The notes under the pieces: model-generated
What the model saw: the letters and a program-made list of their open reading frames with translations, nothing else
Databases searched by the model: none
What the model was told of the DNA's origin: nothing
Assembly: GCF_004345605.1 (NCBI RefSeq)
Contig: NZ_SLVY01000011.1
Coordinates: 124,001-188,000 of the forward strand
From: Rhodococcus sp. SMB37
GTDB lineage: Bacteria; Actinomycetota; Actinomycetes; Mycobacteriales; Mycobacteriaceae
DNA length: 64,000 nucleotides
Direction: 5' to 3'
Made by a program: the position numbers and the translations under genes
Shown here: one piece after another, positions 3,572 to 53,613 of the stretch
Numbering within the stretch: position 1 is the stretch's first letter
How the letters are laid out: the number at the start of each line of letters is the position of its first letter

Positions 3572-3718
3572 GACCGGCAGAGGCGGCGCACTGTGCACCG
3601 CCCCGCCGCGCCCGGCGGTGGTACTCCGGAAGAGAAGACAATTCCGTCGTCGACGCACCCGCAGGCGGTGGTCGTCTTCGGTGTAGCAAAGCCGTACTGT
3701 GAGGTCGATACATGCTGT

Positions 3719-30179: not shown

Positions 30180-30201
30180 CCGATCCGGCCGGCGAGGCTC
30201 G

Positions 30202-30216
30202 GTTACTATCGGTAAC
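30202..30216. promoter_or_regulatory. Inverted repeat GTTAC-N5-GTAAC
   Basis: GTTAC (30202-30206) and GTAAC (30212-30216) around TATCG form a typical TetR-style operator in the divergent gap. No TetR gene is adjacent, so the regulator would act from elsewhere. Confidence 0.45.
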
Positions 30217-30265
30217 GACAATCGCATTCAATTGTAGCGGGCGAACCACCGATCGGAGTTACCTC

Positions 30266-31198
30266 ATGTACGACGTCGTCATTGTGGGTGCAGGTGCCGC
30301 CGGCCTCAGCGCCGCGCTGGTACTCGGGCGCCAGAAAAGATCCGTCCTGATAGTCGATGGTGGACGGCCGCGTAACGCGCCCGCCGCCGAAATGCATATG
30401 TACCTCGGCCGCGACGGTGGTGCACCGGCTCATCTCCTCGCCGACGGGCGTGCCGAAATCGACGTATACCCGACGGTCGAGCGGATCTCCGGCCAGGTCA
30501 GTGCGGTCGGCGGAGTCGACGGTGCATTCGAGGTAACGGTCGACGACGGGCCGCCCGTACAGGCTCGCAAGCTGTTCTTCGCTGTGGGCGTCACCGACGT
30601 CCCGTGGGAGATTCCGGGCCTGGCGGAACGCTGGGGATCAGGAGTCTTCCACTGCCCGTTCTGCCACGGATTCGAGACCGACGGGCTGACGCTCGCGGTC
30701 CTGGCCAACGGCCCGGACGCTGGTCTCGGCGCCTACGTCGCCGACCGCTATTCCGATGATGTGGTGGTCTGCACCAACGGTCCGTCGACCATTCCGGACC
30801 CGTTGAGCGCCATGCTGGACAAGACGGGCGCGCGGGTGGTGGAGACGCCGGTCGATCACATCGAGGGCGAACCTGGTTCGCTGACGGTGCATTTCGCCGA
30901 CGGCTCCGTTCTCGAACGTCAGGCCCTCTACCACCGGGCGCCGACGACTCCGAACACGGCGCTCACTCGTGCGCTCGGGTGTGAGCATTTCGACGACGGA
31001 TGTGTCCGCGTCGACGAGTTCGGTAAGACGACCGTTCCCGGGGTGTCCGCCGGCGGCGACGCGGCGCACCTGGCAGCCGTCCCCGAGCCGGTGACGCTGG
31101 TGGCTCCCGCTGCCGCGGACGGTGTCCGTGCCGCAGTGTGGTTGGAGCAGGATCTCTTCGGCGAGACGTTCGTCGACCAGTCCGTGTTTAAAAAGTGA
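30266..31198 (+). CDS. Thioredoxin reductase-like FAD/NAD(P) oxidoreductase
   Basis: 310 residues with FAD motif DVVIVGAGAAGLSAALVLG, redox pair Cys-Pro-Phe-Cys in FHCPFCHGFE, and the second FAD motif PGVSAGGDAAH. The second nucleotide-binding site (LTLAVLANGPDAGLGAYVAD) lacks the classic GxGxxG, as in ferredoxin- or low-affinity thioredoxin reductase-like proteins, so the electron donor is uncertain. No thioredoxin gene adjacent. Likely a disulfide reductase or oxidase. Confidence 0.85.
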   Translation: MYDVVIVGAGAAGLSAALVLGRQKRSVLIVDGGRPRNAPAAEMHMYLGRDGGAPAHLLADGRAEIDVYPTVERISGQVSAVGGVDGAFEVTVDDGPPVQARKLFFAVGVTDVPWEIPGLAERWGSGVFHCPFCHGFETDGLTLAVLANGPDAGLGAYVADRYSDDVVVCTNGPSTIPDPLSAMLDKTGARVVETPVDHIEGEPGSLTVHFADGSVLERQALYHRAPTTPNTALTRALGCEHFDDGCVRVDEFGKTTVPGVSAGGDAAHLAAVPEPVTLVAPAAADGVRAAVWLEQDLFGETFVDQSVFKK

Positions 31199-31490: not shown

Positions 31491-34022
31491 TCACAGCGCC
31501 TGGCCGACGAACAGGCGCTGTGACGGGGCTGCCAGCGCAGTGCCGTCCACGGGAAGCTCGAGGGATGGACGAATACCGTTGATGGACAGGTAGTGCCGAA
31601 TGTCGGCATCGGAAAGGAAGACGCTCCCGTTCCGGCGGTCGGCCGCACCCGGATACGCTGCACCGGCTCGCGGCGACAGCAGGAACTGCATCGTGGCCAG
31701 CACGAGGTAATGCTCACGAACGGCCTCGATCACGACGGCGATCCCCGACGGTGCCAGCACTTCACTCAGGGCTTCGACAGACGATCCCGCATCGGTCGCA
31801 CAATGGATAACGTTCGCGGCCAGCACCACGTCGAATGCCTGTGCCGGTAGATTCTGATCGGTCAGTCGGATATCGATGTCTGCTGTCGCGGTGCGAAATC
31901 CGGATCGAGCACCGAAACGCTCTGCGGCCGAGGTGGTGAAAAAGCGGGAGATGTCGGTGAAGAGGTAGTCGATATCCTGGTCGCCGAGCGCTGCGAGCGC
32001 GGCATGTGTGCCGCCCCCGGCGCCGCCCCCAAGCTCGAGGATGCGGAGTGGGCCGGGCCGGGTGCGCGCGGCCTCGGCGATGATCCGGGCCGCGGCGCCG
32101 TGCAGGTACCGGTTGCTGAAATTCCTCTCGTCCTTGCTCAGCGACGTGGTCATGTCGCCGTCGGGAAACATCAATGCTTGCGCCGACACCTCGTCACGCA
32201 GCAACGGGCCGAGCGAAGACAGCGCTCTCGAGTAGAATCCGGCCATCGCGGACGGATACCCGAGGGCGCGGCAGGCACGGGCGAGTTCCCGGTCGTCGAT
32301 GCTGTTCGTCGCCGGCTGGGTGGGCTTCGCGAGGACGAACGCGTCGTGGCCCTGCCGGTGTGCGTGTCCTTCGGCGCACAAGACCTCGATCCACCGACGC
32401 AGAATCCACAGGTGCCGCTCTGCGACTCGCAGTGTCGCGGCCACCTTGTCGATGGACGCCGTCACACCGGGCCGAACCCCGCCGTCGGAACAGAGGAAGC
32501 CTGCCAGCGCATCGAGGGCGATGCCGTCCAACCGTTCGACAGCTCCGGGTACGCGGACAAGTGCTGCATCGGAAATGGGCTCCGGCGTACCCGACACGGC
32601 ACACCTTCCCGCACGGTCGATCTCGTGTCGCCGACGATTCGCTGCGACGATGTCGAGACCGCGTCCGGACGGAAGTTCGACGGTCATGCGTTCCGGGCGG
32701 GCGATACCGGCCCGACGCAACAGCGTGCGGGCGACGTCGAGCATCCGACTGCGTGCGAACGCGCCCAGCGGCTCGTGAGGAGTGCCGGCCTCCGGTGGGT
32801 CTGTCGCGGTGATCGCGCCTACTACCGCGGGCGATGCCACCCGGAACACGGCGGGATCGGACGGATCGATCAACACCACTGCATCCGTACCGGTCAACGC
32901 CGAACTCAGCGCTGCGGCCGTGACGGATCGGGGAATGTCCGTGATCAGGGTGGGTCCCGATTCGACACGCGCTCGCAGATCGGTCAGTGCGGCGCCGTCG
33001 CGATCGAGATCGTGCCACGACGTCACCGAGGGAGCATCGCTCCCGGCCACGGCGGCGACGTCGACAGTGAACACTGCATCGAACCGATACCGCGTGAGTT
33101 CGGAATCGTCGCGCAGCGTCTTCGCGTACGCGAAGACCGACACCTCTCGACCGGACGCGGCTGCGATGGACGCGAGCGTCGACGGGTCCACCGACAGTTC
33201 GCTGTCCGACGATGCCCGCCGATCCACTCGGTCGCCCAGTGTGTTCGGGTCTCCATCCGGATTCTTGGCCATCTCCGCCCAGCGGGCGAAGTCGTGGAGC
33301 AGGCCCGAATGCCGGATGTCGCCGACGATCACGGTGCCACCGGGGGCGACCGTGTCGATGGCGTCGAGTACGACTGCAGCAAGATAGCGGGTGTCCGGAA
33401 AGCACTGGGTGACCGAGTTCAGAAGAATGCAGTCCGGTGTTGCGCCGGTCGCTGCAACGGCGTCCCGCACGAGTTGTCCCCGCAGTTCGTGCGCGGCGGC
33501 CTTGACGAAACTGGTTCCGGCGATGCGTTGCGCGGCGAGTCTGTCCACGATCTCTCCGGCCACGTCGGTACCGACGTAGCTGTCGACATGCGGGGCGAGT
33601 CTGCGCATCAACAGTCCTGTCCCGCATCCGAGCTCGAGCACGTTGCGGGGACGTTGTGCGAGAACGAGTTCGACTGTGCGCTCGACCCATTCGATCATGT
33701 GCTCGGTCGGCAAGGGCTCGCCGGTGTCGGTGGCACGCCAGCCGGCCAGATCGTCGTCCCGATCCTGCGTCTGCATATCGTGCTGCTGTGTGGAGCTGTA
33801 GGTCCAGTCGTACACCTCTGTCCAGTGCGTCAGATGTTCGTGGGTGAGGCCACCGACCACCGCGGCGCCCTCTGCTCTCGTCGTCGCGACGGCCTCGTCG
33901 GAGACGACGATGCGTACTCCTCCGTCTCCATCCGGGTCGACGCGCGCGATCCATGGGTGCGAGGACAGAGCATCGACGGCTGCGTTGAGATCGGGGTGCG
34001 GGGGCAATTCGGTATCGGTCAT
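31491..34022 (-). CDS. Double methyltransferase of the metallophore cluster
   Basis: 843 residues with two class I methyltransferase domains. Domain 1 (about 60-330) resembles NRPS-embedded methyltransferases: WTEVYDWTYSS, motif I NVLELGCGTGLL at 127-138, SVTQCFPDTRYL. Domain 2 (about 600-843) resembles PKS/HMWP1-type domains: MFPDGDMTTSLSKDERNFSN, motif I ILELGGGAGGG at 661-671, LFTDISRFF. A middle region (340-590) is degenerate. There is no carrier domain, so it must act in trans. In yersiniabactin synthesis equivalent domains are embedded in HMWP1. It overlaps the ABC ATPase stop by 4 bp; last gene of the 49248-31491 operon. Confidence 0.85.
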   Translation of the reverse strand: MTDTELPPHPDLNAAVDALSSHPWIARVDPDGDGGVRIVVSDEAVATTRAEGAAVVGGLTHEHLTHWTEVYDWTYSSTQQHDMQTQDRDDDLAGWRATDTGEPLPTEHMIEWVERTVELVLAQRPRNVLELGCGTGLLMRRLAPHVDSYVGTDVAGEIVDRLAAQRIAGTSFVKAAAHELRGQLVRDAVAATGATPDCILLNSVTQCFPDTRYLAAVVLDAIDTVAPGGTVIVGDIRHSGLLHDFARWAEMAKNPDGDPNTLGDRVDRRASSDSELSVDPSTLASIAAASGREVSVFAYAKTLRDDSELTRYRFDAVFTVDVAAVAGSDAPSVTSWHDLDRDGAALTDLRARVESGPTLITDIPRSVTAAALSSALTGTDAVVLIDPSDPAVFRVASPAVVGAITATDPPEAGTPHEPLGAFARSRMLDVARTLLRRAGIARPERMTVELPSGRGLDIVAANRRRHEIDRAGRCAVSGTPEPISDAALVRVPGAVERLDGIALDALAGFLCSDGGVRPGVTASIDKVAATLRVAERHLWILRRWIEVLCAEGHAHRQGHDAFVLAKPTQPATNSIDDRELARACRALGYPSAMAGFYSRALSSLGPLLRDEVSAQALMFPDGDMTTSLSKDERNFSNRYLHGAAARIIAEAARTRPGPLRILELGGGAGGGTHAALAALGDQDIDYLFTDISRFFTTSAAERFGARSGFRTATADIDIRLTDQNLPAQAFDVVLAANVIHCATDAGSSVEALSEVLAPSGIAVVIEAVREHYLVLATMQFLLSPRAGAAYPGAADRRNGSVFLSDADIRHYLSINGIRPSLELPVDGTALAAPSQRLFVGQAL

Positions 34023-35434
34023 ATATGTGTGCTCCTCGTGTGCGAAGGGGTTTCGATGATGGAGGCCTTGTGAATTTCGACGACGCGATCCGCCCGAGCG
34101 GCCAGATACTCGTCGTGCGTTGTCGCCAGAATCGACAGGCCGCTGTCGGTTTCGGTGCAGGCGTGCCTGAGCTCGTCGAGCAGGTCGGTAATCAGCATTG
34201 CCGTGTTGTGATCGAGCGATGCGGTCATTTCGTCGGCTATGAGAAGGCGCGGGCGGCCCGCGAGGGCTCGGGCGATCGCGACACGTTGTCGCTGACCGCC
34301 GGACAGCTCGTGCGGGCGTCGGCGTAAGACGGTCCTGGGTACCGCGACACGGTCGAGGAGACGCTCGGCCTCGGCCCGAAGGTCCGCCCGCGGATGCAGT
34401 CGTCGCATCTGACGTCTGAGGATGCGCTCGATGTTGTGGGCGGGATTGAGTGCATCCCGGGGATTCTGGCCGACCAACGCGATCGCAGCGCGCGACTGCG
34501 GTGTACGTTCACCGACCCGGGCGGCGACGGCATGCCCGTCGAGTGTCAGGGTGCCGTCGAACGGATGCAGTCCACACACCGCACGCAGCAGCGTGGTCTT
34601 GCCGCACCCGGAGGGACCCCGTAGGACGACGAACTCGCCGGTACGGACGTCGAGGGTGGAGCTGTCGAGCAACATACGCCCTTGCTCGGTGCGAATCCCG
34701 AAATCGGTCAGCTCCAGTGCGGATGTGCCGGAGCGGACGACCCTCCCGGATACGAACACGGTGTGGTCGTCGACGGCCGGCGCGGTCCGTAGTACCCGAT
34801 CGCACACGGCAATCAGGCGTGGGTCGTGAGTGGCGACGATCGTGACGCCGTTCGCGCGTCGTCGTGCGATGATGGCCGCGAGTACCGGTTCGAGGGTGAC
34901 GTCGTCGAGCCCCGAGGTCGGTTCGTCGAGGATCACCAGCGGGGGCGACACCACCAGCGCGCGGGCAACAGCGACGCGTTGAGCCTGGCCACCCGAGAGA
35001 CGGTGGGGCGGCGAGTCGATCTGCTCGTCGGTCAGCCCCAACTCGGAGAGAACGGAGCGCGCGGCTGCGGTTGCGTCGTGTCGCGCGCAGCCGCGCATAC
35101 GTGCTGCCTCCGCGACCGAACGACATGCGGTGTGGCCGGGATGCAGCGCCGACGCCGGATCCTGGGCGGCATATCCGACAGTGGTTCCTCGCCACGATCT
35201 GGTGCCGTGCTCGCCCGGTCCGCACCAGACGACCGACCCGGCAGTGACGGCCACGCCGCGCGGCAGCACCCCGAGGATGGCGGCGATCGCGGTGGTCTTA
35301 CCTGAGCCGGACGGGCCCACGAGTGCGACGATCTCGCCGGTTGCGGCGTCGAAATCGAACTGATGAAGAGGATGGTTTCCGCGGTCGTCGGTGACCGTCA
35401 GGCCGCGAACGCGCAGCGTGCTCGGGGTCGTCAT
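34019..35434 (-). CDS. Fused double ATPase of a Dpp/Opp-type ABC importer
   Basis: 471 residues, two ABC cassettes in one chain (DppD-DppF type). Cassette 1: Walker A LVGPSGSGKTTAIAA, signature RLSGGQAQRVAVARAL, Walker B PPLVILDEPTSGLD. Cassette 2: Walker A LRGPSGCGKTTLLRA, signature ELSGGQRQRVAIARAL, Walker B LLIADEMTASLD. ATG 35434 follows GAGGAG and overlaps the permease stop. With two permeases and a lipoprotein it forms a complete importer, likely for the metal-loaded product. Mycobacterial-type siderophore importers (IrtAB) are different, so this class is notable. Confidence 0.92.
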   Translation of the reverse strand: MTTPSTLRVRGLTVTDDRGNHPLHQFDFDAATGEIVALVGPSGSGKTTAIAAILGVLPRGVAVTAGSVVWCGPGEHGTRSWRGTTVGYAAQDPASALHPGHTACRSVAEAARMRGCARHDATAAARSVLSELGLTDEQIDSPPHRLSGGQAQRVAVARALVVSPPLVILDEPTSGLDDVTLEPVLAAIIARRRANGVTIVATHDPRLIAVCDRVLRTAPAVDDHTVFVSGRVVRSGTSALELTDFGIRTEQGRMLLDSSTLDVRTGEFVVLRGPSGCGKTTLLRAVCGLHPFDGTLTLDGHAVAARVGERTPQSRAAIALVGQNPRDALNPAHNIERILRRQMRRLHPRADLRAEAERLLDRVAVPRTVLRRRPHELSGGQRQRVAIARALAGRPRLLIADEMTASLDHNTAMLITDLLDELRHACTETDSGLSILATTHDEYLAARADRVVEIHKASIIETPSHTRSTHI

Positions 35435-36258
35435 GTGGAGACTCCTCGTCGCTCGGCCGACCCGAGTAGTGTCGACCCGAGCGTTGTCGATGCGATCGCG
35501 ACGATGGTGGCGAGTGCGGCGAGAGCAACCGCCGGCGCGACGGTTGCGGCAGCGTTCAGTCCGATTCCGGAATAGTTCTCCGTGATCATCGATGCCCAAT
35601 CCGGCTCCGGGGGTGAAGTTCCCAGGCCCAGCGCGTTGATGGTGGACACGAGTTGCAGGGCCACGATGACGCGCAGTCCGTAGTCGGTCGTGATCGCGGC
35701 GGTGTGTGACGGCAGCACCTCGTGGCCCAGAATGGACGGGACGGAATCGCCACGCATGCGTGCGACGTCGATGTAGGTGGCGTGGCGGCAGTCGGCGGAA
35801 AGGTCGGCGACGACGCGGGCGGTGAGCGGGGAACCGGCTACGACGGTCGCGGCAACCACCGCGACGGGCATCGGGACGGCGACTGCGAGGACGAGTCCGA
35901 CGAGAACGGCGGGGACCGCGAGCAAGAGATCGGTCCCGGCGCTCACGCCGACTTCGATTCGGCGCCCGGACCACCCGGCCCAGAGACCACAGGCGACGCC
36001 GACCGATGTCGACGCGGCGGCCGCGACGAGCGCAACCGCAGTGAGAGTGCCGCCGCCCCAGAAGATTCGCGACAGCACGTCGCGCCCGAGTGCGTCGGTC
36101 CCGAGCAGCTGGTCTGCGTTCGGCGGTGTCCACGGTCGGGCCACTGTCGCGAGCGGGTCGAGGTCGGTGAGATAACGGCCGAACAACGCGAAGGCAAGCA
36201 CCGCGGCCAGTGAGACCGCGATCAGCGACCGTGCCGATCGCCCACTACGGCCGGTCAC
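35431..36258 (-). CDS. ABC importer permease, DppC type
   Basis: 275 residues from GTG 36258, overlapping the preceding stop (GTGA). The N-terminal helix is followed by the DppC-type TDALGRDVLSRIFWGGG and the permease loop ARMRGDSVPSILGHEVLPSH (EAA-type). Pairs with the DppB-type permease at 36255. Confidence 0.9.
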   Translation of the reverse strand: MTGRSGRSARSLIAVSLAAVLAFALFGRYLTDLDPLATVARPWTPPNADQLLGTDALGRDVLSRIFWGGGTLTAVALVAAAASTSVGVACGLWAGWSGRRIEVGVSAGTDLLLAVPAVLVGLVLAVAVPMPVAVVAATVVAGSPLTARVVADLSADCRHATYIDVARMRGDSVPSILGHEVLPSHTAAITTDYGLRVIVALQLVSTINALGLGTSPPEPDWASMITENYSGIGLNAAATVAPAVALAALATIVAIASTTLGSTLLGSAERRGVST

Positions 36259-37223
36259 CTCGGATCCTTCCTGCCGATGCATGCAGCGACAAGATCAGCG
36301 ACGGCCATGCCGACCACTACCACGAGCGCCGCGAGCAACGAGATCGCTTGTACTACCGACACATCGCGTGTGGCGATCGACGTCACGAACAGTTCTCCGA
36401 GCCCGGACAGACCGAAAATATTCTCCACCAAGGCGGTTCCGCAGATCAGCCCGGCCAGGACGAACGACATCACACGAACGACGGGCGCCGCGACAACCGG
36501 AAGGACGTACGACGCAGCGATATGTGCCCGGCCGATGCCGCGCATCCGGGCATCGACGATGTACGGGGTTTCCGTGGCATCCACCAGCGGTCCGCGCAGC
36601 ATCATCGCCGCATATGCGCTTGCCGGCAGCGCCAGCGTCAATGCCGGCAACACCAGGAGGTCGAGGTGTGCCAGTGGTGACCGGCCGGCAGGAATCAGGG
36701 AGACCGGTGGCACGAGTCCTGCCCTCCCGGACAGGATCGCGGCGACGAGAGCCGCAACGACGACCTGGGGGAGCGCCGCAATTGCGGTGGTGGCAGCCGA
36801 TCCGGCAGATCGACGTCCCCCGCCGTGGGAGGCGAGCACAGCGAGCATCCCCATCAGAGGGATGATGACGACCAGCGCGAGCGACACGATGCCCATCGAT
36901 ACCGGCAAGCGGTTGCGGAGCATCGACGCCACACTGCGCCCGGTGCTCGTCGACGTACCGAGATCACCTCCGACGGCATTCGTCAGCCACGCGAGGTACC
37001 GCACAGGAAGTGGTTCGTCGAGACCGGCCGCGGAGCGCAGCATCGACAGTTGTTCGGGGCTCATCCGGCCTGCCGCACGCAGCGACACGGCGTCACCTGG
37101 AAGGAGCGCAGTGACACCGAAGACGATCACCGAGACGGCCAGGGTGAGTGCGATTGCGCGCGCCGCCGTCCCGAGCAGCGGACGCAATCGCACTCCGCCG
37201 GAGTGGCGTGACGTCGAGATCAC
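36255..37223 (-). CDS. ABC importer permease, DppB type
   Basis: 322 residues, six helices. The N-terminal domain carries VSVIVFGVTALLPGDAVSLR, the usual DppB start, and the EAA loop reads RMRGIGRAHIAASYVLP. Overlaps its neighbours by 4 bp on each side, part of one transcript. Confidence 0.9.
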   Translation of the reverse strand: MISTSRHSGGVRLRPLLGTAARAIALTLAVSVIVFGVTALLPGDAVSLRAAGRMSPEQLSMLRSAAGLDEPLPVRYLAWLTNAVGGDLGTSTSTGRSVASMLRNRLPVSMGIVSLALVVIIPLMGMLAVLASHGGGRRSAGSAATTAIAALPQVVVAALVAAILSGRAGLVPPVSLIPAGRSPLAHLDLLVLPALTLALPASAYAAMMLRGPLVDATETPYIVDARMRGIGRAHIAASYVLPVVAAPVVRVMSFVLAGLICGTALVENIFGLSGLGELFVTSIATRDVSVVQAISLLAALVVVVGMAVADLVAACIGRKDPR

Positions 37224-38785
37224 CCTTCGAGGTCGACCTGGTCGATGAACGCACTGGCGAATCCGATGCCTTCGGGCACTCCGGTCACGCCCGGTGCTGC
37301 AAGATCCAGACGGTCGGAGGCAGCCCAGATGGCGTAACCACCTTCATCGCGGAGCGTTGCCATCAGCTCACCGATTCCGCGATCACGGGTCGCGTCGTCG
37401 GGCTCGGCGACGGTCTCGGCGAGTTTCGCCGACCAGGCGGGATTGCCCCACGCGGTTTCGTTGGTCGGTGAATCCGGGCGAAGGGCCACCTGGGTGATGT
37501 CGAGGAAGGGGATGCCCCCGAGATAGCTGATGTAGAAGGGGCGTTGGGCGTACACATCCTGGAAGTAGGTGTCCGGGGGTGACAGCTCGACCTTCACTCG
37601 GATGCCGATGTCGGCGAGCTGCTGGGCGATGAGGGTGGCCGCGCTGTCCATTCCGGGGTACGCGGTGGTGCTGTTCAACGTGACGTCGACACCGTCTGCC
37701 AGGCCGGCCTCGGCCATCAGTTCGCGGGCGCGGTCGAGGTCACGAGTGCGCTGCGGCAGATCGGGTGCAGCCGGGTCCTGGGGACTGATCACGTCGTTAC
37801 CCAGCTGTCCTTGTCCCAGGAACGCGACATCGAGGAGCTGGTCGCGGTCGAGGGCATTGCGGACGGCCTCACGGACTCGGTTGTCGTCGAACGGTGCTGT
37901 GTCGGTGCGCATCACAAGGGGGTAGAGGGTCGCGCCTGCATGCCGGACCACTCCGATTCCCGACGACTCGTCGAGTGCCACCACCGCCGACGCCGGGACT
38001 CCCGCGGCGAGATCGGCCTGCCCCGAGGTGACGGCGTCGGCGCGTGCCTGCGGATCCGGGATCGCGCGCATCTCGATGGTTGCCATCGGCGGAACGGGGC
38101 CCCACCACTCGTTGTTGCGTTCGAACACTTCGACCTGCCCGCCCGCGAAGGCCGGACGGAACGGTCCCGACCCCGGTACAAGTTCGGTGAAGTCGGCGCT
38201 GCCCTCCGGTACGACGAACGTCGACCCCTCCAGGGCCTGACCGACCTCCGCATACGGTTCCTTGGTGCGGAGCAGCAGCGTCGTGTCCGACGTCGCTTCC
38301 GAGGCGTCGAGATCGAACCGTTCGACGCGACCCGAGTTCTCCGCCGATTTCTCGCCCATCCGGCGGAGGGAGAACAGCGCATCCGCGGCGGTGACGGGGC
38401 TGCCGTCGGAGAACCTCGCGTCGTCGCGCAGCGTGATGGTCCATTCGGTCAACGTCTCATCCGGCTCCCAGGACTCGGCCAACCGCGGTTGTGTCTGTCC
38501 GTCGGCACCGGGAACCGTCAATGGGTCGTAGGTGAGGGCCATCCGAACCACATCACTTTCCGCGGGCAGGAGTCCGTGCGGATCGTTGGTGCTGACTGCC
38601 GACGAGCCCGGCGCAACGTATCGGAACACGTCCGATGCACTGACGTCGTCTCTGGCGTTATTCGGGTCGCCGGCGTTGTTCGGCTCGTCCGACGTCGAGC
38701 AGCCGGCCAGCACGGCGACGGACGCGGCGAGTGCCGCTGCCGCGCGGAGCGGGGTCGAGCGGGGTAGATGGGTGCGATATCGCAT
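37220..38785 (-). CDS. Substrate-binding lipoprotein of the Dpp/Nik family
   Basis: 521 residues with signal peptide and lipobox LAGC (AAALAASVAVLAGC). SBP_bac_5 features: LTYDPLTVPGADGQTQPRLA ESWEPDETLTEWTITLRDDA, then FSDGSPVTAADALFSLRR. Dpp/Nik/Cnt-type binding proteins capture peptides, nickel or metal-opine complexes. Position between the PKS and the permeases suggests it captures the metal-charged cluster product. Confidence 0.9.
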   Translation of the reverse strand: MRYRTHLPRSTPLRAAAALAASVAVLAGCSTSDEPNNAGDPNNARDDVSASDVFRYVAPGSSAVSTNDPHGLLPAESDVVRMALTYDPLTVPGADGQTQPRLAESWEPDETLTEWTITLRDDARFSDGSPVTAADALFSLRRMGEKSAENSGRVERFDLDASEATSDTTLLLRTKEPYAEVGQALEGSTFVVPEGSADFTELVPGSGPFRPAFAGGQVEVFERNNEWWGPVPPMATIEMRAIPDPQARADAVTSGQADLAAGVPASAVVALDESSGIGVVRHAGATLYPLVMRTDTAPFDDNRVREAVRNALDRDQLLDVAFLGQGQLGNDVISPQDPAAPDLPQRTRDLDRARELMAEAGLADGVDVTLNSTTAYPGMDSAATLIAQQLADIGIRVKVELSPPDTYFQDVYAQRPFYISYLGGIPFLDITQVALRPDSPTNETAWGNPAWSAKLAETVAEPDDATRDRGIGELMATLRDEGGYAIWAASDRLDLAAPGVTGVPEGIGFASAFIDQVDLEG

Positions 38786-38815
38786 GGGGTGCTGTCGCTT
38801 TCGGGGTGTAGGGCA

Positions 38816-45313: not shown

Positions 45314-48300
45314 CGGACGGCCTCCATGGCGTGCATGCGGGCGGCGAGCCGGGCCGCGCGACCGTGCGATGCGCTGGGCAGCCTCGGGGTGTGTTCGCCC
45401 GGTGGGGGTGCGGCACGAGTGCCGGCGCGCGTGGTCTCGGAGAGGAAGGCCGCGAGTGACGCGACGGTGGGGTTGGTGAACAGGTCGATCACCGTGAATT
45501 CGTCGGAGGCGACGGCTTTGCTCAAGCGGCGGTGGGCGAGCACCAGCGTCAGCGACGTCGCGCCCACGTCGAAGAACGGCGTGGATGTGTCGATCTTCTC
45601 GCCGAGGAGTTCGGTGAAGATATCTGTCACGAGAGTTTCGATCGCCGAGTCGACGAGGCGCCCCGGACTCTCGACCGGTTCGAGTGCTGTCGGCACCGGA
45701 CCCGCCGCCGCTGGTTCGATCGCCTTGATATGCAGTTCGAGCAGCCCACTCGTTGCATGCACCTCGTCGACGGCCACCGAATCACCCAGATGGCGAACGG
45801 TTCGATCGGCCCACCGGACGGCGGCGTCGAGGGATCGCCGCGGTGCCAGGTCGCCTGCCTCGACGGTGATGCGCAGTTCGAGACCGCGGGCCAGCGCGTC
45901 GGCGACCACGTCGAGGGCTGTGTCGTCCGCAGGAGTCTCGGCGTGCTGTTCCACCTCGGCGGGCGCCTGCGATTCCTGTTCGCGCCGGAAAGGATTGGGT
46001 AAGGCGCGGTGATCGACCTTGCCGTTCGGTGTGACAGGCAGGGACGGAAGCCGTACGAATCGGCCGGGGATCATGTAGGGCGGGAGATGGGTCTGCAGAG
46101 CAGCAACGAGATCTGCGTCGGTCGCAGGTTCACCGGCCATCGAGTCGACGATGAAACAGACCAGGCGCGGCCGGTCGTCGGGCCCGGGCACTGCGGAGGC
46201 AACGGCGGCGCGTACCTGCGGCAAACGCTCGAGGGTCGAGTCGATTTCACCGAGTTCGATGCGATGGCCGGCGATCTTGACCTGGCGGTCGACGCGGCCG
46301 AGGAACTCGATGGAACCGTCGGTGCGCCACCTGCCGAGATCACCGGTGCGGTAGAGACGTCGGCCGGTAGCGGTGTGCACGACGAACCTCGCCGAGGTCT
46401 GTTCCGGATTACCGATGTACTCACGCGCAAGACCGGCGCCGCCGATGTACAGCTCACCGGCCTGTCCGACCGCGCAGGGCACACCGTCGTCGAGGATGTG
46501 AAAGCTCTGACCGCCGAGTGCCCGCCCGTACGGGATCGTCGTCCATTCCGGATCGACCTCGCCGATCGGGTGAAAGATCGACCAGATCGCGGCCTCCGTC
46601 GCACCACCGAGGCTTACGAGAGTGGCCTCCGGCGCGAGAGCCCGCAGGCGATCGGGAAGCGTGGTCGGAATGTAGTCGCCGGACAGGAAGACGAGGCGCA
46701 GCGACGACAAGGCGCGTCGGGCACGTTCCTGCTCGATCTCGGCGTACTCGACGAGCATCTCGAGCAGCGCCGGCGCCGTGTTCCACAGCGTGACACGGTG
46801 CCGCGCCATCACGTCCATCCAATGCCCGGGGTCGCGCAGGCGGGAGCTGTCGGGCAGAACCAGTGCCCCGCCGGCACCGAGCACCGAGAAGATGTCGAAC
46901 ACCGACAGATCGAAGCTGAAGGCGGACAGGCCGAGCACGCGATCATCCGACGTGAGCGGGTAGCGGCCCATCAGGTCGTCGAGTGTGGTTCTGACTGCGC
47001 GGTGTTCGACGGCCACGCCCTTCGGCTCTCCGGTCGATCCGGAGGTGAAGATGATGTACGCGAGATCGCCGGCATCCGGTCGGCGAGGAGCGGTGCGCTC
47101 GGGATCCAGGAAGCCGTTGTCGCTGATCTTGCCGGCCGCATCGAAGGCGAGGACGTCGACGGCTGCCGGCCATCGGCTCCGGTCGACGTCCGCGGCAACC
47201 AGGGCGTGCGCGATGTCTGCCTGACGGACGACGCTGGCGACGCGTTCGGCGGGCCAGTTCGGTTCCACCGGGACGTAGGCGGCGCCGCTCGCGGCGACAC
47301 CGAGGACTGCGATGATCTGCGCTGGGCTCTTTTCGGCACTGACCGCGACGGTGTCGCCGGGGCCGATTCCGCGCGCGGCGAGACAGTGGGCGATGTCCGC
47401 GGCACGACAGCGGAGCGATTCTGCGGAATGCTCGGTGGTGCCCGAGATGACGGCCGGGGAGGAATCATCGGCGCGGGCATCGAACGGATCGGTCAGCAGT
47501 GGGCCCGCGGACTCGAATGCATTGGCCGTGATGGGATCTTCCGCACGGAAGCTGGGGTCGTGAGCGAGGGCGCGATCCGTCCAGGCTGCGTCGACGTCGG
47601 CCAACCGCCCGAGGAGTCGTGCGTGGGCTTCGGCCATCGATCGCACGAAGTGGGGGTCGAGCGCTCCGTCGACGGTGTCCCATGCAATGCGCAGTCGGCC
47701 ACCGTCGTCGCGCACGATGTGATCGAGCAGCACCTGAGGCGTTTGCGAGACGCCGAAGACCTCGGATCCCAGCCATGCAGTGGGGGAGTCGTTCCCGTCC
47801 GACAGGCCCAGTCCGCTGGTGAAGACCACCGGGTGGCTGGGTCCGGGCAACTGTGCCGAGTCGGCGGACTGGTCGGGCGTGGACGCGCGCGCGGGGCCGA
47901 GCCGGAGAACTTCCACCCCGGACACGGTTCGGTGGTCCATATCGGACCAGAACCGGTGATTGACGGCGGACGCGAACGTCGCGAAATCGCAGTCGTCGGC
48001 CAACGGCATCTCCACCAGCACTGTGGTGGTGAAGTCGCCGATCGACTCCGCCATGGTCTGTTCGTCGTCCGGGTGTTCGCGGTCGAAGAGCGTGGTGTTG
48101 AGTGCGAACTTCTCGGTGGCTCCCCAGCATCGAAGCGTCATGGCGAAGCTCGCCAGCAACACTGCGGTCGGTGTCAGTCCACGCGAGGCGGACGCACTCC
48201 GAAGCGAATCCCAGGTGCTGGAATCCAATTCGGTCGAACAGCGCGTGAACCGGGGGATGCCGAGGCTGTGGGGTGCCGTCAGCCAGGGTAGATTCGGGCC

Positions 48301-49248
48301 TCCGGGCAGCTCGTGTGCTCGCGCGGCCCAGTACTCGCGATCTGCTGCGCGTCGGCGAATCTGGCCGGGATCCGCCTTCCGAGCTCGGACGATCTCCGGA
48401 AACGACGGGCCCAGTGGCGGGAAATCGGATCGGCCGTCCACCCGGGCGCCCCACTCGCGCATGAGCGTGATCCATCCGGCCATGTCGAGGGCAAGGATGT
48501 CGAAACCGACGAACAGGCGGGTGACTCCGCCGGGAAGCAGCGCCGCGCGGATGTCGTACAGCGGTCCGGTGTCGACCGGAAGCACGCGATGCGAATTCGT
48601 GCGGCGAAGCTCGCCGAGTGCCTCCGCGCACGTGTCGGGAGCTGCCTGTGTCAGATCGGTGACCTCGAAGCTGTACCTGTCCACGGAATCCCGGACAACA
48701 CCCCGCGCGTCGGCGTCGACGACGAATCTCAGCATCGGATGCCGCTGAACCACTGCGTTCCAGGCATTTTCGAGTGTGCGTAGATCCTCATGCGGGTCGT
48801 CGGCGACCCGGTCGTATTCGTAGTAGTAGTACGTGGCTACGCCGCCGAGCGGAAACGCCGGTTCACGTCCGACGAGATATGCCTGCTGGACCGCGCCGAG
48901 CTCGAAGGAACTGTCGGTCGGTCGTTCATCGTTCTCGGATGCCGCCGGCGGGGTGGATGTCGATATTCGGTCTCCGGCGGGTCTCGCCCGGCGGATGCGC
49001 TGGGCGATGCTCATGGCCGTCGCATCCCCGAGGAAGTCCGTCAATTCCAGATCGACATCGGTGTCCTCGAACAGACTGCGGCGCAGTCGTACTGCAGTGT
49101 AGGAGTCGATGCCCAGTGCGGTGAGCACCGTGGTCGGGTCGATGGCGTCGGGTGGCGTCTCCATGATGTCGCCGAGTGCTTCGAGAACGACGTCGATCGG
49201 CTCCTCGGCTCGGTGGTCCGTGGCGGGGTGCATCTCGGGCGACGGCAT
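45310..49248 (-). CDS. NRPS: carrier-Cy-A(Cys)-carrier
   Basis: 1312 residues. N-terminal carrier Ser49 (LGIDSYTAVRLR), probably an aryl or starter carrier since it has no A domain. Cy (about 115-560): motif D-X4-D-X2-G (Asp250, Asp255, Gly258 instead of Ser). A domain (about 600-1090): TSGSTGEPKG, and specificity residues read by hand as DLFNLSLIWK, nearly the known cysteine code DLYNLSLIWK. A helical 100-residue segment (1105-1200) of unknown role precedes the carrier (Ser1232, VGATSLTLV). This is HMWP2-like without its embedded methyltransferase and second module. ATG 49248 follows GAAGGGACG. First gene of the minus operon, under the Fur/Zur-type box. Confidence 0.92.
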   Translation of the reverse strand: MPSPEMHPATDHRAEEPIDVVLEALGDIMETPPDAIDPTTVLTALGIDSYTAVRLRRSLFEDTDVDLELTDFLGDATAMSIAQRIRRARPAGDRISTSTPPAASENDERPTDSSFELGAVQQAYLVGREPAFPLGGVATYYYYEYDRVADDPHEDLRTLENAWNAVVQRHPMLRFVVDADARGVVRDSVDRYSFEVTDLTQAAPDTCAEALGELRRTNSHRVLPVDTGPLYDIRAALLPGGVTRLFVGFDILALDMAGWITLMREWGARVDGRSDFPPLGPSFPEIVRARKADPGQIRRRAADREYWAARAHELPGGPNLPWLTAPHSLGIPRFTRCSTELDSSTWDSLRSASASRGLTPTAVLLASFAMTLRCWGATEKFALNTTLFDREHPDDEQTMAESIGDFTTTVLVEMPLADDCDFATFASAVNHRFWSDMDHRTVSGVEVLRLGPARASTPDQSADSAQLPGPSHPVVFTSGLGLSDGNDSPTAWLGSEVFGVSQTPQVLLDHIVRDDGGRLRIAWDTVDGALDPHFVRSMAEAHARLLGRLADVDAAWTDRALAHDPSFRAEDPITANAFESAGPLLTDPFDARADDSSPAVISGTTEHSAESLRCRAADIAHCLAARGIGPGDTVAVSAEKSPAQIIAVLGVAASGAAYVPVEPNWPAERVASVVRQADIAHALVAADVDRSRWPAAVDVLAFDAAGKISDNGFLDPERTAPRRPDAGDLAYIIFTSGSTGEPKGVAVEHRAVRTTLDDLMGRYPLTSDDRVLGLSAFSFDLSVFDIFSVLGAGGALVLPDSSRLRDPGHWMDVMARHRVTLWNTAPALLEMLVEYAEIEQERARRALSSLRLVFLSGDYIPTTLPDRLRALAPEATLVSLGGATEAAIWSIFHPIGEVDPEWTTIPYGRALGGQSFHILDDGVPCAVGQAGELYIGGAGLAREYIGNPEQTSARFVVHTATGRRLYRTGDLGRWRTDGSIEFLGRVDRQVKIAGHRIELGEIDSTLERLPQVRAAVASAVPGPDDRPRLVCFIVDSMAGEPATDADLVAALQTHLPPYMIPGRFVRLPSLPVTPNGKVDHRALPNPFRREQESQAPAEVEQHAETPADDTALDVVADALARGLELRITVEAGDLAPRRSLDAAVRWADRTVRHLGDSVAVDEVHATSGLLELHIKAIEPAAAGPVPTALEPVESPGRLVDSAIETLVTDIFTELLGEKIDTSTPFFDVGATSLTLVLAHRRLSKAVASDEFTVIDLFTNPTVASLAAFLSETTRAGTRAAPPPGEHTPRLPSASHGRAARLAARMHAMEAVR

Positions 49249-49306
49249 GAGGGCGTCCCTTCAGTTGGACATGGCGTGATCGAGCGGTAGGTCTGCTACT
49301 CTAGAT

Positions 49307-49325
49307 GATAATGATTACCGTTATC
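49307..49325. promoter_or_regulatory. Fur/Zur-type metal box between the two metallophore operons
   Basis: GATAATGATTACCGTTATC matches 16 of 19 positions of the classical Fur box and pairs 7 of 9 arm positions. It overlaps the plus-operon start codons. TACTCT at 49297-49302 suits a -10 box for a leaderless plus transcript, and TATCAT on the minus strand suits the other. Iron control in mycolate actinobacteria normally uses IdeR boxes (TTAGGTTAGGCTAACCTAA), which this is not, so zinc control by Zur is favoured. Confidence 0.7.
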
Positions 49326-50528
49326 GAATCGGATGCCCGTCTCGGAAGCCGAGCCGACGAGAACGGTCTCGCAGCGATCGAGGGGTGGCCGGTCGCGCAG
49401 TGCGCCGAGGACGTCGACGCGCTCGATCGGCTCGTTCTCGTCGGCCTCGCAGACCTGCTGGCACGCACCACCGACATCGCGGCAGCGGACGGCAGTGACC
49501 CGCAGGCCTTTGCCGACCGAATGAGTGCCTCACTCGAACACCGGTGGGTGGTCGAGCGCTGGCTGAACGATCTCCTCGCCGCGGGCCTGATGGAGGCCAT
49601 CGGCGACGGCCGGGTCCGATTGGTCGAGCGACCTCGGCGAAAGGATCTGACGGCCGCGCGCGACCGGATGATCGATGCGTGTGTACGACTGGGTTATGCG
49701 GCGTCGCTTCCCACACTCCTTCTCGATTCGCTCCGGCATGCCGTCGACCTGCTGCAGGGACGTGTGAATGTGCAGTCGATCCTCTACCCGGACGGCGACG
49801 CGACGGCAGCGCTCGAGGTGTACGGCACCAATGTCGTCAGCCGCTACCTCAATGCGGCCGCTGCCTCGGTCGTCGCCGACCTCGCGCACAGCCGGTCGGC
49901 GCCGCTGCGCATCCTCGAACTGGGAGCGGGGGTGGGCGCCACGTCGGAACACATCCTGGGCACGCTCGGCGCCAGCAGTGTGACGCACTATGTCTTCACC
50001 GATCTCTCGCCACACTTCCTGCACATCGCGCGCGAGCGGTTCGCCGACGAACCGTGGGCGCACAAGATGAGGTTCGCCACGGTGGACATCACCGTGCCCA
50101 TCGCAGACCAACTCGGAAACAGTTCCGCAGACCGCGACGGCTACGACGTCGTGCTCGCCGCGACGATGGCGCACAACACCGTCGACATCGACGCGCTGCT
50201 ACGCGAGATCGGCGTCCTACTCGCGCCGGGCGGCGTCGTGGTGTTGATCGAGACGGTCGTCGAGCACGCCCAGTCGTTGACGACGATGCCCTTTGCGCTG
50301 TCGATGCCGGACGGTTCCGGACCGCTGGCCCGCACCGACGTCCGTGCCGGTTCGCACCGCACCTACCTCGCCGCCGACGAATGGACTGCTGCGATGGTGC
50401 GCGCCGGGCTCCGTCCGTGCGTCGACCTTCCCCGCAACGGCCACCCGCTCGAAGCATTCTCGCAGCGGCTCCTCGTCGCAGCCCGGCCCGATACCCCTAC
50501 GACCCACGCGGAGACACACGACAGATGA
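49311..50528 (+). CDS. Trans-acting methyltransferase of the metallophore cluster
   Basis: About 405 residues. The N-terminal region (1-170) has a winged-helix look. The C-terminal methyltransferase reads LYPDGDATAALEVYGTNVVS, motif I LRILELGAGVGATSEHIL, VFTDLSPHFLHIARERF. It is the same subfamily as domain 2 of the 31491 protein. ATG 49305 and ATG 49311 are both in frame and both lie in or beside the metal box; a leaderless start at 49311 fits the -10 spacing. Ends overlapping the next gene (ATGA). Likely methylates the carrier-bound thiazoline or malonyl-derived carbon. Confidence 0.85.
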   Translation: MITVIESDARLGSRADENGLAAIEGWPVAQCAEDVDALDRLVLVGLADLLARTTDIAAADGSDPQAFADRMSASLEHRWVVERWLNDLLAAGLMEAIGDGRVRLVERPRRKDLTAARDRMIDACVRLGYAASLPTLLLDSLRHAVDLLQGRVNVQSILYPDGDATAALEVYGTNVVSRYLNAAAASVVADLAHSRSAPLRILELGAGVGATSEHILGTLGASSVTHYVFTDLSPHFLHIARERFADEPWAHKMRFATVDITVPIADQLGNSSADRDGYDVVLAATMAHNTVDIDALLREIGVLLAPGGVVVLIETVVEHAQSLTTMPFALSMPDGSGPLARTDVRAGSHRTYLAADEWTAAMVRAGLRPCVDLPRNGHPLEAFSQRLLVAARPDTPTTHAETHDR

Positions 50529-52516
50529 CTGCCCAATTAGACAGCGTCCCAGCAGTACCGGGCACGGACGACATCCGGCGCGTCCTCACCGAGATCTGGG
50601 CGGAACTGCTCGATCTGCAACCGGCGGATGTCGTCGACGACGCCAGTTTCCTGCGGCTCGGCGGTGACTCCGTGCTCACCGTCCGCATGTCCGCCTTGAT
50701 CCGCAAGCGCCTCGACATCGCGCTCGAGCTCTCCGATGTTCGGGTCGAGACGACACTCGGTCAACTCGTCGAGCTGGTCGAGCGGAGGAGCACGGACGAG
50801 CCTGCCCGTGCGTGGAACATCGAGATCGCGCGCCGCGACGATCCCCACTCGACGTTCCCGCTCCTGCCGCTGCAACAGGGCTATTTCGTCGGGCAGCAGG
50901 ACGGCTGGGAGCTGTCCTACGAGTCGGCTCACTATTACCTCGACTATGCGCTCGACGGGATGGAGAGCGACGATGCCGAGGACGCACTGGCCGACGCGTT
51001 GGAGCGTCTGGCGCGTCACCAGCCGACGCTACGGGCACGGGTGACGCAGGACGGTCGCCAATACGTGCTCGCGGAGTCGGATCCGTCCGCCCTGCCCCGG
51101 GTGACGCTGTACGACCTGCGCGATCGTGACGAGCGGGAGATCGAATCGACGCTGGCGGATGTGCGCCGGGACATGAGCGAACACGGTCCCGATCCGATCA
51201 CCGGGCCGGGCATCGACGTGCGCTTGACGTTGCTGCCCGGTGGTCGCGGGCGCCTGCACCTCGGGATGAGTCTGTTGACCTTCGACGGATGGTCGTCGGG
51301 TGCGATGAATCGCGACCTGCTGTCGTACGCCGCCGACTGGAACGCGACGCTCGTGCCGCTGTCCATCGACTTCGGTGACTATGTTTCCTCACTGTCCGGA
51401 CTGAGCCGCACCGAAGCATGGTTGGCCGACCGTGAGTGGTGGTGGGATCGCCTCGACGACCTGCCTGCCCCGCCCGCGCTCCCGCTGGTTGCCGACCCGA
51501 AGTCCGTCCGTCCGGTCACCATGGGCAACCGCGAGGCGCGGTTCTCGGCCGACGAATGGGCGACACTGCGAGCGCAGTGCACCGCACACGATGTCACCGC
51601 GTCGACGGTCATGCTCACAGCCTTCGGTACGGTGCTGGCGCGCTGGGCCGGGCATTCGGATCTGCTGCTCAATGCCCTGCAGCTCAACCGTTTACCGCTG
51701 CATCCCGACGTGCACCGTGTGGTCGGGGCGTTTGCAGCCACGATGCTCATCCCACTCGAACTGGACCCCGATGCGAGTTTCGCCGAGTTGGCGGCCTCTG
51801 TGCAGTCGGTGTCGAGTGAATACACATCGCACAATCTCGTCTCCGGTGTGGAGGCGGGCCGCGAGCTCGCCCGGAGGCGAGGCAGCCGGCGACCGCCGGC
51901 GCCGATCGTCTTCCAGAGTGTGCTGGGAGTGGACGCTGCGATGGGCGGGACGGCCTCGACGGATGCCGGCCCGCTGGGAACGGTCGACATCGCGGATTAC
52001 TTTCATCAGCTCCGCACCCCGCAGGTCGCTCTCGAAGTGCGTTGCTTCGAGCTCGGTGACGAAGTGGTGACCGTGTTCTCGCTGGTCGACGAAATCTTCG
52101 ACGAAGCGGAAGTGGCGGTGGCTTTCGAAGAGTTCGTCTCCACCGTTCATGAACTTGCCGCAGGCAGAGGGTGGGAAGCGGTCCCGGACCTGCCCCGCGC
52201 GGGTGCCCCTGTCGCCGACGACCGGATGCGGTTGGGTCTGCTTCCCGATCCTCCTGTCAACGAGCACAGCGGCCCGCCCATCGACGACCTCGAATACACC
52301 GTGTGTGAGGTGTTCGAAGAGTTCCTCGACGTTCCGGTGCTCGATCGCGGCGGCAACTTCTTCGCCCTCGGCGGAGACTCGATGCTGGCCGTTCGTGTGG
52401 TGGCGTTGTTGGCCAAGGAAACCGGTGCGGCCGTTGCCATTCGAGATTTTCTCGACGATCCCACCGTCGCGGGCGCCGCCTCGGCAGTTCGGCTGCGATT
52501 GGGAGTCATTCAGTGA
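50525..52516 (+). CDS. NRPS: carrier-Cy-carrier, no A domain
   Basis: 663 residues. Carrier 1 Ser49 (LGGDSVLTVRM), Cy (about 110-575), carrier 2 Ser619 (LGGDSMLAVRV). The Cy motif is S-X4-D-X2-S (Ser249, Asp254, Ser257): the first Asp is replaced. It lacks an adenylation domain, so cysteine must be loaded by the A domain of the 45310 protein, as HMWP2 does for several carriers. Together with the other proteins this gives five carriers and three Cy domains. It starts in an ATGA overlap and ends overlapping the reductase start. Confidence 0.92.
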   Translation: MTAQLDSVPAVPGTDDIRRVLTEIWAELLDLQPADVVDDASFLRLGGDSVLTVRMSALIRKRLDIALELSDVRVETTLGQLVELVERRSTDEPARAWNIEIARRDDPHSTFPLLPLQQGYFVGQQDGWELSYESAHYYLDYALDGMESDDAEDALADALERLARHQPTLRARVTQDGRQYVLAESDPSALPRVTLYDLRDRDEREIESTLADVRRDMSEHGPDPITGPGIDVRLTLLPGGRGRLHLGMSLLTFDGWSSGAMNRDLLSYAADWNATLVPLSIDFGDYVSSLSGLSRTEAWLADREWWWDRLDDLPAPPALPLVADPKSVRPVTMGNREARFSADEWATLRAQCTAHDVTASTVMLTAFGTVLARWAGHSDLLLNALQLNRLPLHPDVHRVVGAFAATMLIPLELDPDASFAELAASVQSVSSEYTSHNLVSGVEAGRELARRRGSRRPPAPIVFQSVLGVDAAMGGTASTDAGPLGTVDIADYFHQLRTPQVALEVRCFELGDEVVTVFSLVDEIFDEAEVAVAFEEFVSTVHELAAGRGWEAVPDLPRAGAPVADDRMRLGLLPDPPVNEHSGPPIDDLEYTVCEVFEEFLDVPVLDRGGNFFALGGDSMLAVRVVALLAKETGAAVAIRDFLDDPTVAGAASAVRLRLGVIQ

Positions 52517-53613
52517 GCGGCGGCGATGCGGTCCCGGTGATCGGATTGATCGGTGGTTCCGGGACGGTGGGTCGCACAGCGGCGTTGCGAATGTCCGCAG
52601 CCGGGCTCGGATCGCTGCGTATCGGTGGCCGTAACCTCGATGCTGCAGCGGCCGTCGCCGCGGAATGTGTGGGGGAAGCCGAGCCGGTCCGGTTGGACCT
52701 GGCGGACGAAGCGAATCTCGAAGAGTTCTGCTGCGGCTGCAGCATCGTGGTGAACTGCGCCGGACCGTCCTATCTCGTGCTGGATTCGGTTGCGCGGACC
52801 GCCTTCTCCGTCGGTGCTGACTACATCGATATCGGTGGGGAGCTCCCCGCCGCCGATGCGCTCCGAGCTGCGGACACCGCGCGTGATCGGACTGCGATCT
52901 TCTCTGCGGGTGCGATGCCAGGCCTGTCCGGTCTGTTGCCGCGCTTGATTGCGCAGGACCGGCCGCTGCGCCGACTGGAAACGTATGTCGGTGGGGTGGC
53001 TCGGTTCACGGAGTTGTCGGCGGCCGACGGACTCCTCACCCGTGGAGAGCGCTTCGGCGAGTCGATGGCTTCGATGCGGGATGGGATGATCGATTCCAAT
53101 TCTGTTTCGCCGCTTCGTGATGTCTCGATTCCTGGCTTCCCGCGTCCGGTGCACGCGTGGCCGTATCTGACGACCGAAGCCCAGTCTCTGGGTGGGCTAC
53201 CGGGGGTCGCCGAGGTGCGTGCGTACAACGTCTTCGCGTCCGACCGCCTCACTCGCGCGATGACGCACGCGTGGGCGCAACTGTCGGAATCCCCGGATCA
53301 CGCCGAACTCGCGCCGTTCATACCGTCGATCGTCGACGCCACCATCGCTGACGAGGACGAATTCGGGTCGTTCTACGTAATGCTTTTCACGGGCCGGCCC
53401 GCGCCGGGACATCCTCGAGGTGTCACCCGGGTGGTTCTGCGCGCCGAGGATTCGTACGGTCTCAGCGGCTCGGTGGTTGCCCTCGCTGCCGAGCACATCC
53501 TGGTCGGACGAGTGTCGCCCGGTGTCCATCTTGCAGCCGAGGCACTCGACCCGTGCTACGCGGTGAAATGGCTCCGAGAAGATCCACTGGTGCACGAGCT
53601 GGTGGTGGCGTGA
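52513..53613 (+). CDS. Saccharopine dehydrogenase-like NAD(P) reductase
   Basis: 366 residues from GTG 52513. Rossmann N-terminus VIGLIGGSGTVGRTAALRMS, IRIGGRNLDAAAAV-type loop, and CSIVVNCAGPSYLVLDSVAR, then YIDIGGE, as in saccharopine dehydrogenase NADP-binding proteins. In yersiniabactin and pyochelin pathways a thiazolinyl reductase (YbtU/PchG) of a different family makes the thiazolidine. This protein occupies that position in the operon and may be a non-homologous replacement. Translationally coupled to the NRPS upstream. Confidence 0.8.
   Translation: MSGGDAVPVIGLIGGSGTVGRTAALRMSAAGLGSLRIGGRNLDAAAAVAAECVGEAEPVRLDLADEANLEEFCCGCSIVVNCAGPSYLVLDSVARTAFSVGADYIDIGGELPAADALRAADTARDRTAIFSAGAMPGLSGLLPRLIAQDRPLRRLETYVGGVARFTELSAADGLLTRGERFGESMASMRDGMIDSNSVSPLRDVSIPGFPRPVHAWPYLTTEAQSLGGLPGVAEVRAYNVFASDRLTRAMTHAWAQLSESPDHAELAPFIPSIVDATIADEDEFGSFYVMLFTGRPAPGHPRGVTRVVLRAEDSYGLSGSVVALAAEHILVGRVSPGVHLAAEALDPCYAVKWLREDPLVHELVVA

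Follow-up and report, generated by a model that had tools for sequence, protein, structure and literature searches.

To our knowledge, few bacterial zincophores are known, and coelibactin is made without a polyketide synthase (PKS) module. Coelibactin is the product of a Zur-controlled nonribosomal peptide synthetase (NRPS) of actinobacteria, whose promoters are described as bound by Zur in Streptomyces coelicolor (PMC5472717), and its isolation was reported to have failed as of 2023 (PMC10127202). Yersiniabactin synthetase (HMWP2/HMWP1) is described as having one cysteine-type adenylation (A) domain for several carriers, three domains of the cyclization (Cy) family, a ketosynthase-acyltransferase-ketoreductase (KS-AT-KR) module, C-methyltransferases (C-MTs) and a thioesterase (TE) (PMC9396620). 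Here we describe a cluster with the same parts in a stretch of 64,000 nucleotides from Rhodococcus sp. SMB37 (contig NZ_SLVY01000011.1, positions 124,001 to 188,000; the window), and we propose that it probably encodes a zinc-starvation metallophore, or zincophore, system.

The window cluster differs from the yersiniabactin locus in having more proteins, free methyltransferases (MTs), no salicylate synthase or ligase that we could find, a first carrier resembling an acyl carrier protein (ACP) and an altered second Cy domain, as well as another reductase type, a Nik-type importer and Zur-type boxes. Other described systems share some of these features. Equibactin of Streptococcus equi is likewise yersiniabactin-like, with no salicylate synthase, a single cysteine-type A domain and the saccharopine-family protein EqbM, but it keeps a salicyl-AMP ligase and is described with a DtxR-like repressor, with YbtP/Q-like transporters and without a PKS part (PMC3672683). 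Coelibactin and sorangibactin both involve a protein with a saccharopine dehydrogenase domain, as in the window cluster, and MTs acting in trans have been proposed for sorangibactin; however, the two NRPS proteins described for the latter include no PKS module, and they are accompanied by a P450, an Irp3-like reductase, and both a salicylate synthase and a ligase (PMC10127202). Piscibactin and photoxenobactin (pxb) also differ, being described as salicyl-capped and made by large HMWP-like proteins (PMC9396620). We place the window cluster among the thiazoline NRPS-PKS metallophores, as a variant for which novel chemistry is a realistic prospect. A literature search that mostly covered papers outside subscription journals found no actinobacterial cluster with this layout, although a description may exist. 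Genome mining based on chelator genes is reported to miss clusters that lack them (PMC12971057), and thus clusters of this kind may be overlooked.

Gene content and recurrence of the cluster

The host genome comprises 6.2 Mb in 52 contigs, and its closest named relatives are Rhodococcus sp. 1168 and Rhodococcus JCM 9791. The cluster has 12 genes, or 13 units if the fused MTs are counted separately (Table 1). Its minus strand is transcribed in the order NRPS1, PKS, substrate-binding protein (SBP), NikB, NikC, NikDE and fused MT pair, and its plus strand in the order MTB1 (a C-MT), NRPS2 and reductase. The initial annotation had called positions 31491-53613 a metallophore-type NRPS-PKS cluster whose yersiniabactin-like parts are split over separate proteins. 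Pfam searches bear this out, and every part that it listed is present on the divergent operons: one cysteine-type A domain, three Cy-family domains, five carriers (the five PP-binding stretches of the whole cluster), KS-AT-KR, TE, three MT domains and a reductase. Its borders were too narrow, since a small MT (the fourth MT) and a flavoprotein also belong to the cluster, and its reasoning made no mention of the importer.

We set the borders at 29412-53613 because Rhodococcus sp. 1168 has the same gene order from the reductase through to the flavoprotein and small MT (89% and 73% identical to those of the window, respectively), and because the open reading frames (ORFs) of strain 1168 outside either cluster end have no close match in the window. 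The same genes lie in one neighbourhood of Lentzea albida, and the cluster is also present in six genomes of one family (in G286 as a 7.6-kb fragment) and in one genome of the window's order. Because loci were located by means of NRPS1 or NRPS2, the presence of these two is built into the search. Nine loci are spanned completely (the window, 1168, Lentzea, G121, G313, G339, G370, G393 and G442); the contigs from G286, Rhodococcus JCM 9791 and Actinomadura are fragments and were excluded from counts of complete loci. All nine carry NRPS1, PKS, NRPS2, an N-methyltransferase (N-MT), at least one C-MT, the reductase, the flavoprotein and the small MT, the last being only 30% identical to that of the window in G393. 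The importer is present in eight and a second C-MT in six. Because the same genes are found together in distant genomes, their association is far beyond chance, and the cluster is real, conserved and common to distant actinobacteria.

The only further gene family found in at least three loci reads, by eye, like a type II thioesterase; it occurs in the clusters of G121, G286, G393 and G442, and not in that of the window. With the host's own genome included, NRPS1 was matched at E<=1e-100 in three of 18 genomes of the genus, one of them with a protein that is 34% identical and is not counted as an orthologue, and NRPS2 at E<=1e-80 in 2/150 genomes of an order sample and 7/296 of a class sample.

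Zur-type boxes, the importer and the metal

The link to zinc suggested by the initial annotation gains support from a 21-bp palindromic Zur-type box predicted in the cluster promoter. The site GATAATGATTACCGTTATC (49307-49325) lies on a start codon and adjoins the 56 bp that separate the divergent operons; even with three mismatches allowed, the sequence has no second occurrence in the genome. A degenerate pattern with a single match in the window was written after the site had been seen, and its shuffle result is therefore weak. The published-type pattern TGAWAATGATTWTCA, allowing up to two mismatches, occurs at five places genome-wide (reversed control, 0). These include the divergent promoter of the cluster and the space between an operon of ribosomal protein paralogues and a COG0523-like GTPase gene. 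From its translations, we read this operon as rpmB-rpmG-rpsN-rpsR (paralogues of L28, L33, S14 and S18), which with the divergent COG0523-like gene has the appearance of a classic Zur operon. Near two of the other three places, no zinc gene was seen in the ORF lists. At position 615, the cluster contig of Rhodococcus JCM 9791 carries nearly the same box as the ribosomal-paralogue operon. An iron box of the IdeR/DtxR type was also sought and was rejected as a candidate, having no match in the window at up to three mismatches.

A Zur matrix built from the five 21-bp Zur sites given for Corynebacterium glutamicum in PMC2823685, and hence independent of the window site, was applied to ten cluster spans (gene borders plus 300 bases) at a threshold of 14 bits. 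Inside the spans (223 kb) it gave 34 hits in 22 separate boxes, with at least one box per span, while 200 column-shuffled matrices gave a mean of 0.31 and a maximum of 4 hits, none reaching 34. Outside the spans (257 kb) there were seven hits in five boxes, three of which lie within approximately 1.5 kb of a cluster. The other two are a strong pair in the G313 stretch (35 and 31 bits, at positions 7506 and 8980), located roughly 10 kb from the cluster, and might mark another zinc-uptake locus; a second Nik-type transporter set lies in the same stretch at 575-4075. The divergent site of the window is identical to the cg0042 site at 16 of 21 bases, and boxes also precede the flavoprotein or small MT gene in several loci. 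A compact set of 12 genes with Zur-type boxes in nine complete loci offers a clear handle for finding the metabolite.

The cluster also encodes an importer of complete Nik/Opp-type make-up, consisting of an SBP_bac_5 protein with NikA and AgaA among its relatives, two permeases and two fused ATPases. The yersiniabactin importer is instead YbtPQ. The resemblance of the importer to NikA, NikB and NikDE would suit a metallophore that serves mainly nickel or cobalt, or a broad scavenger of divalent metals for which zinc is the signal alone. However, the nickel-transport models that it matches, among those shown, all score below their cut-offs, the Zur-type boxes point to zinc, and staphylopine-type systems use Nik/Opp-type importers for zinc too, so we consider this reading quite unlikely.

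Several observations weigh against a zincophore. The 71.5 kb examined in G442 contain a complete cluster and lack an importer, the genes that recur across the complete loci do not include an exporter, and importers of the Nik/Opp type also carry peptides and nickel. The strict 15-bp Zur consensus of Streptomyces, TGAAAATNATTTTCA, has no match in the window with three or fewer mismatches. The sites that precede NRPS1 in Lentzea and G121 (11.3 and 13.5 bits) fall below the threshold, and in these two loci only the flavoprotein/reductase promoters pass it. In addition, the position of the window box on a start codon means that a leaderless transcript or a later start must be assumed. The C. glutamicum Zur targets cg0042, cg0043 and cg2911 are reported to have leaderless transcripts (PMC2823685), an arrangement that would fit such a position.

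Assembly line, starter unit and flavoprotein

The A domain of NRPS1 is of the cysteine type, its code positions reading D L F N - S L I by eye from the alignment. That of PchE is tabulated as D L F N L S L I (PMC3672683), which is close. Catalytic motifs of the PKS protein (KS Cys, AT GHSLGE, KR Tyr, TE GWSMGG and the carrier Ser) are conserved in 9/9 alignment rows, as are the carrier serines of NRPS2 (11/11 and 12/12 rows) and NRPS1 (8/8 and 9/9 rows). No carrier motif lies between Cy3 and TE in any of the nine rows, and for this reason Cy3 must depend on a carrier acting in trans; by domain count, NRPS2 holds a surplus one. This agrees with the initial proposal that the MTs and one carrier act in trans.

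A Thr/Asp cyclodehydration dyad has been described for the Cy2 domain of HMWP2 (PMC9547227). In the window cluster and its orthologues, this dyad and the DxxxxD motif are intact in Cy1 and Cy3 (rows with data). The Cy2 domain of NRPS2, by comparison, has lost the dyad in 12/12 orthologues (Thr to Gln, Asp to Glu), carries Ser (10 rows) or Asn (one row) for the first Asp in 11/11 rows, and reads GAFA in place of GDFT. The loss of key catalytic residues that the initial annotation had raised is therefore real for one of the three Cy domains and does not extend to the other two. Because the replacements are uniform across orthologues, the function of Cy2 appears to have changed, and its residues are most simply read as those of a domain that condenses without ring closure. 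A precedent is reported for the pxb pathway, where Cy domains condense but cyclize poorly (PMC9396620). The conserved dyad-less Cy domain and the split carriers offer a test of how cysteine loading in trans and ring closure are divided.

Residues 60-319 of the fused MT protein match the NRPS MT of 5wmm, and residues 497-818 contain matches to the MTs of CurJ, DisA and AprA; in Lentzea, the N-MT and C-MT are separate stretches. MTB1 and the C-terminal half of the fused protein share 32% identity over 382 residues. Among the cluster proteins scanned, the reductases are the PF03435-type protein and the flavoprotein, and none is a thiazolinyl imine reductase of the Irp3/PchG type, the rest of the genome lying outside this search. 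A literature search for PchK found nothing. Structure prediction for the PF03435-type reductase was too poor for use (mean pLDDT 34.6, pTM 0.30).

For the starter unit, our order of preference is an acyl unit, then cysteine loaded in trans, then an aryl acid from elsewhere. A profile of eight orthologues of the first NRPS1 carrier matches the ACPs of Pks13, modular PKSs and fatty acid synthases, with a few NRPS carriers ranking lower, and none of its 37 matches at E<=0.01 is named an aryl carrier protein. The genome has five chorismate-binding enzymes (NCBIfam scans covered three), and all score below the salicylate synthase cut-off. A model in which an aryl carrier protein receives salicylate was rejected for the window genome on these two grounds, an isochorismate pyruvate-lyase or outside supply not having been tested.

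A related possibility is that the product is an iron siderophore of the yersiniabactin/pyochelin type, whose salicylate or 2,3-dihydroxybenzoate (DHB) cap is imported from outside or else synthesized and activated by genes elsewhere in the genome. The domain counts equal those of HMWP1/2, and the genome holds two isochorismate synthases together with a DHB-AMP-ligase-like protein (C19:40423-41973) that scores 645 bits, below the cut-off of 723.55. Salicylate is also reported to influence the production of equibactin, although that system has no salicylate synthase (PMC3672683). However, among twelve cluster genomes (the host's among them; G023 and G020 are fragmented), only two have a salicylate synthase above cut-off, and neither is beside the cluster: that of G393 is on another contig and that of Lentzea about 41 kb off on the same contig (an isochorismate pyruvate-lyase was not sought). 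G020 has split salicylate synthase fragments below cut-off, and no salicylate synthase relatives were found in the cluster loci searched. Relatives of aryl-AMP (DHB-AMP) ligases within the clusters are limited to the A domains of NRPS1, whereas equibactin keeps a ligase; one ligase each lies outside the 1168 and Lentzea clusters. With the ACP-like first carrier, and with Zur-type boxes in the window instead of an IdeR-type box, we judge a salicyl-capped iron siderophore unlikely.

The C19 ligase adjoins a 4499-residue NRPS-like frame (C19:43401-54353) and lies about 12 kb from an isochorismate synthase, and thus likely belongs to a separate catecholate siderophore cluster; a scan of a few ORFs flanking the two isochorismate synthases found no NRPS. 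Contigs C5, C12 and C16 of the same genome carry several very long frames (6268 to 9066 residues) with adenylation-type matches.

The flavoprotein is constant in the complete clusters, and its best PDB sequence matches are 4ntd (3.8e-49), 3fbs, DepH (3.8e-40) and GliT (1.5e-35), followed by entries called thioredoxin reductase (4fk1, putative, 3.7e-32; 5nii, 1.7e-24). We take 4ntd to be HlmI of the holomycin pathway, although the PDB record itself says thioredoxin reductase. The CPFCHG motif is in register with the CxxC of the first five PDB matches and occurs in 10/10 aligned orthologues, and together with an FAD/NAD(P) fold this suggests a protein resembling HlmI, DepH and GliT. We know these three from antibiotic or toxin pathways and not from a Zur-type regulon.

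The initial annotation had also expected the same chemistry as HMWP2/HMWP1. This part is not supported, given the lack of salicylate synthase and aryl-AMP ligase relatives in the cluster loci searched, the ACP-like first carrier, the dyad-less Cy2, the other reductase type and the constant dithiol-oxidase-like flavoprotein.

From the gene set, the domain order, the kept and lost residues, the boxes and their conservation, we infer the following model, which extends to the binding of Zur, the choice of zinc as cargo, the individual chemical steps, and transport out of and into the cell. When zinc is replete, Zur would occupy the box between the two divergent operons and the one ahead of the flavoprotein and small MT genes, and would silence them. 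Upon zinc shortage, the single cysteine A domain would load its own peptidyl carrier protein (PCP) as well as other carriers in trans; Cy1 and Cy3 would form thiazolines, and the altered Cy2 would add a cysteine, probably without closing a ring. The KS-AT-KR module would insert one malonate unit, and the free MTs (one N-MT, two C-MTs) and the reductase would tailor the chain before release by the TE. The secreted chelator would bind zinc, possibly with other divalent metals, and return via the SBP and Nik-type ABC importer.

Dithiol oxidases confer self-protection on holomycin and gliotoxin producers, and reduced dithiolopyrrolones bind zinc. The flavoprotein might have a similar protective role if the product were a zinc-chelating antibiotic directed at competitors, which would account for the constancy of this protein and for the one cluster without an importer. 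Nevertheless, an SBP-ABC importer in eight of the nine complete clusters and boxes of a zinc-starvation type favour uptake, and an antibiotic role seems very unlikely. Returning to the zincophore, the dithiol-oxidase-like protein accompanies a Cy2 domain expected to leave a thiol open, and for this reason we tentatively suggest a more specific form of the proposal. The zincophore might be primed by an acyl unit or cysteine rather than aryl-capped, and have one or more free cysteine thiols, which a Zur-controlled dithiol oxidase would keep in disulfide form within the cell. Outside, the opened disulfide would provide a thiolate zinc ligand, and the Nik-type system would re-import the chelator. 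If true, the metallophore would be gated by thiol redox state and would represent a new zincophore class.

Features of the locus and its surroundings

Table 1. Genes and predicted Zur-type boxes of the cluster, with window positions.
Feature	Position	Strand	Evidence
Small class I methyltransferase (MTs)	29412..30227	-	Pfam Methyltransf_12/25
Weaker Zur-like box between MTs and flavoprotein genes	30213..30233		16.2 bits with Zur matrix
FAD dithiol-oxidase-like flavoprotein, CPFCHG motif	30266..31198	+	Pfam Pyr_redox_2; PDB sequence matches
Putative fused trans methyltransferase pair: N-terminal NRPS N-MT type (MTA), C-terminal PKS C-MT type (MTB2)	31491..34022	-	Pfam, two MT stretches; solved relatives
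Fused ABC ATPases, NikD-NikE type	34019..35434	-	Domain and family scans; start codon placed
Second ABC permease, NikC position	35431..36282	-	Position and tblastn relatives in 8/9 complete loci; without a family scan of its own
ABC permease, NikB/OppB family	36255..37223	-	BPD_transp_1; NikB/Opp models matched below cut-offs
SBP_bac_5 substrate-binding protein, lipobox-like LAGC (lipoprotein)	37220..38785	-	Family scans; N-terminus inspected
PKS-NRPS: KS-AT-KR-carrier-Cy3-TE, Cy3 directly before TE without a carrier	38816..45313	-	Pfam; alignments
NRPS1: ACP-like carrier-Cy1-A(Cys)-PCP	45310..49248	-	Pfam; alignments; carrier profile
Overlapping Zur-type boxes, divergent promoter, at start codon of the 49305 gene	49303..49329		Motif and matrix scans
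Putative trans methyltransferase, PKS C-MT type (MTB1)	49305..50528	+	Separate frame
NRPS2: PCP-Cy2-PCP, Cy2 without cyclodehydration dyad	50525..52516	+	Pfam; corrected start; alignments
Saccharopine-dehydrogenase-like reductase, Rossmann	52513..53613	+	PF03435; weak PDB matches only

The automatic ORF at 49544-52516 starts too early, its first part overlapping MTB1 in another frame, and the true start of NRPS2 is at 50525. This ORF and another long automatic ORF (34019-36133) both overlap real genes in a different frame, which illustrates the risk of misannotation at this GC content. A PHROGs scan gave no informative match, and NRPS2 had no match in a plasmid collection at 1e-60. The cluster has a somewhat higher GC content than its flanks and is distributed patchily across the genomes sampled from the genus. 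Near the cluster, at 26944-28092 on the plus strand, lies a gene for an IS605 OrfB/TnpB-type protein with a Cas12f1-like TNB domain.

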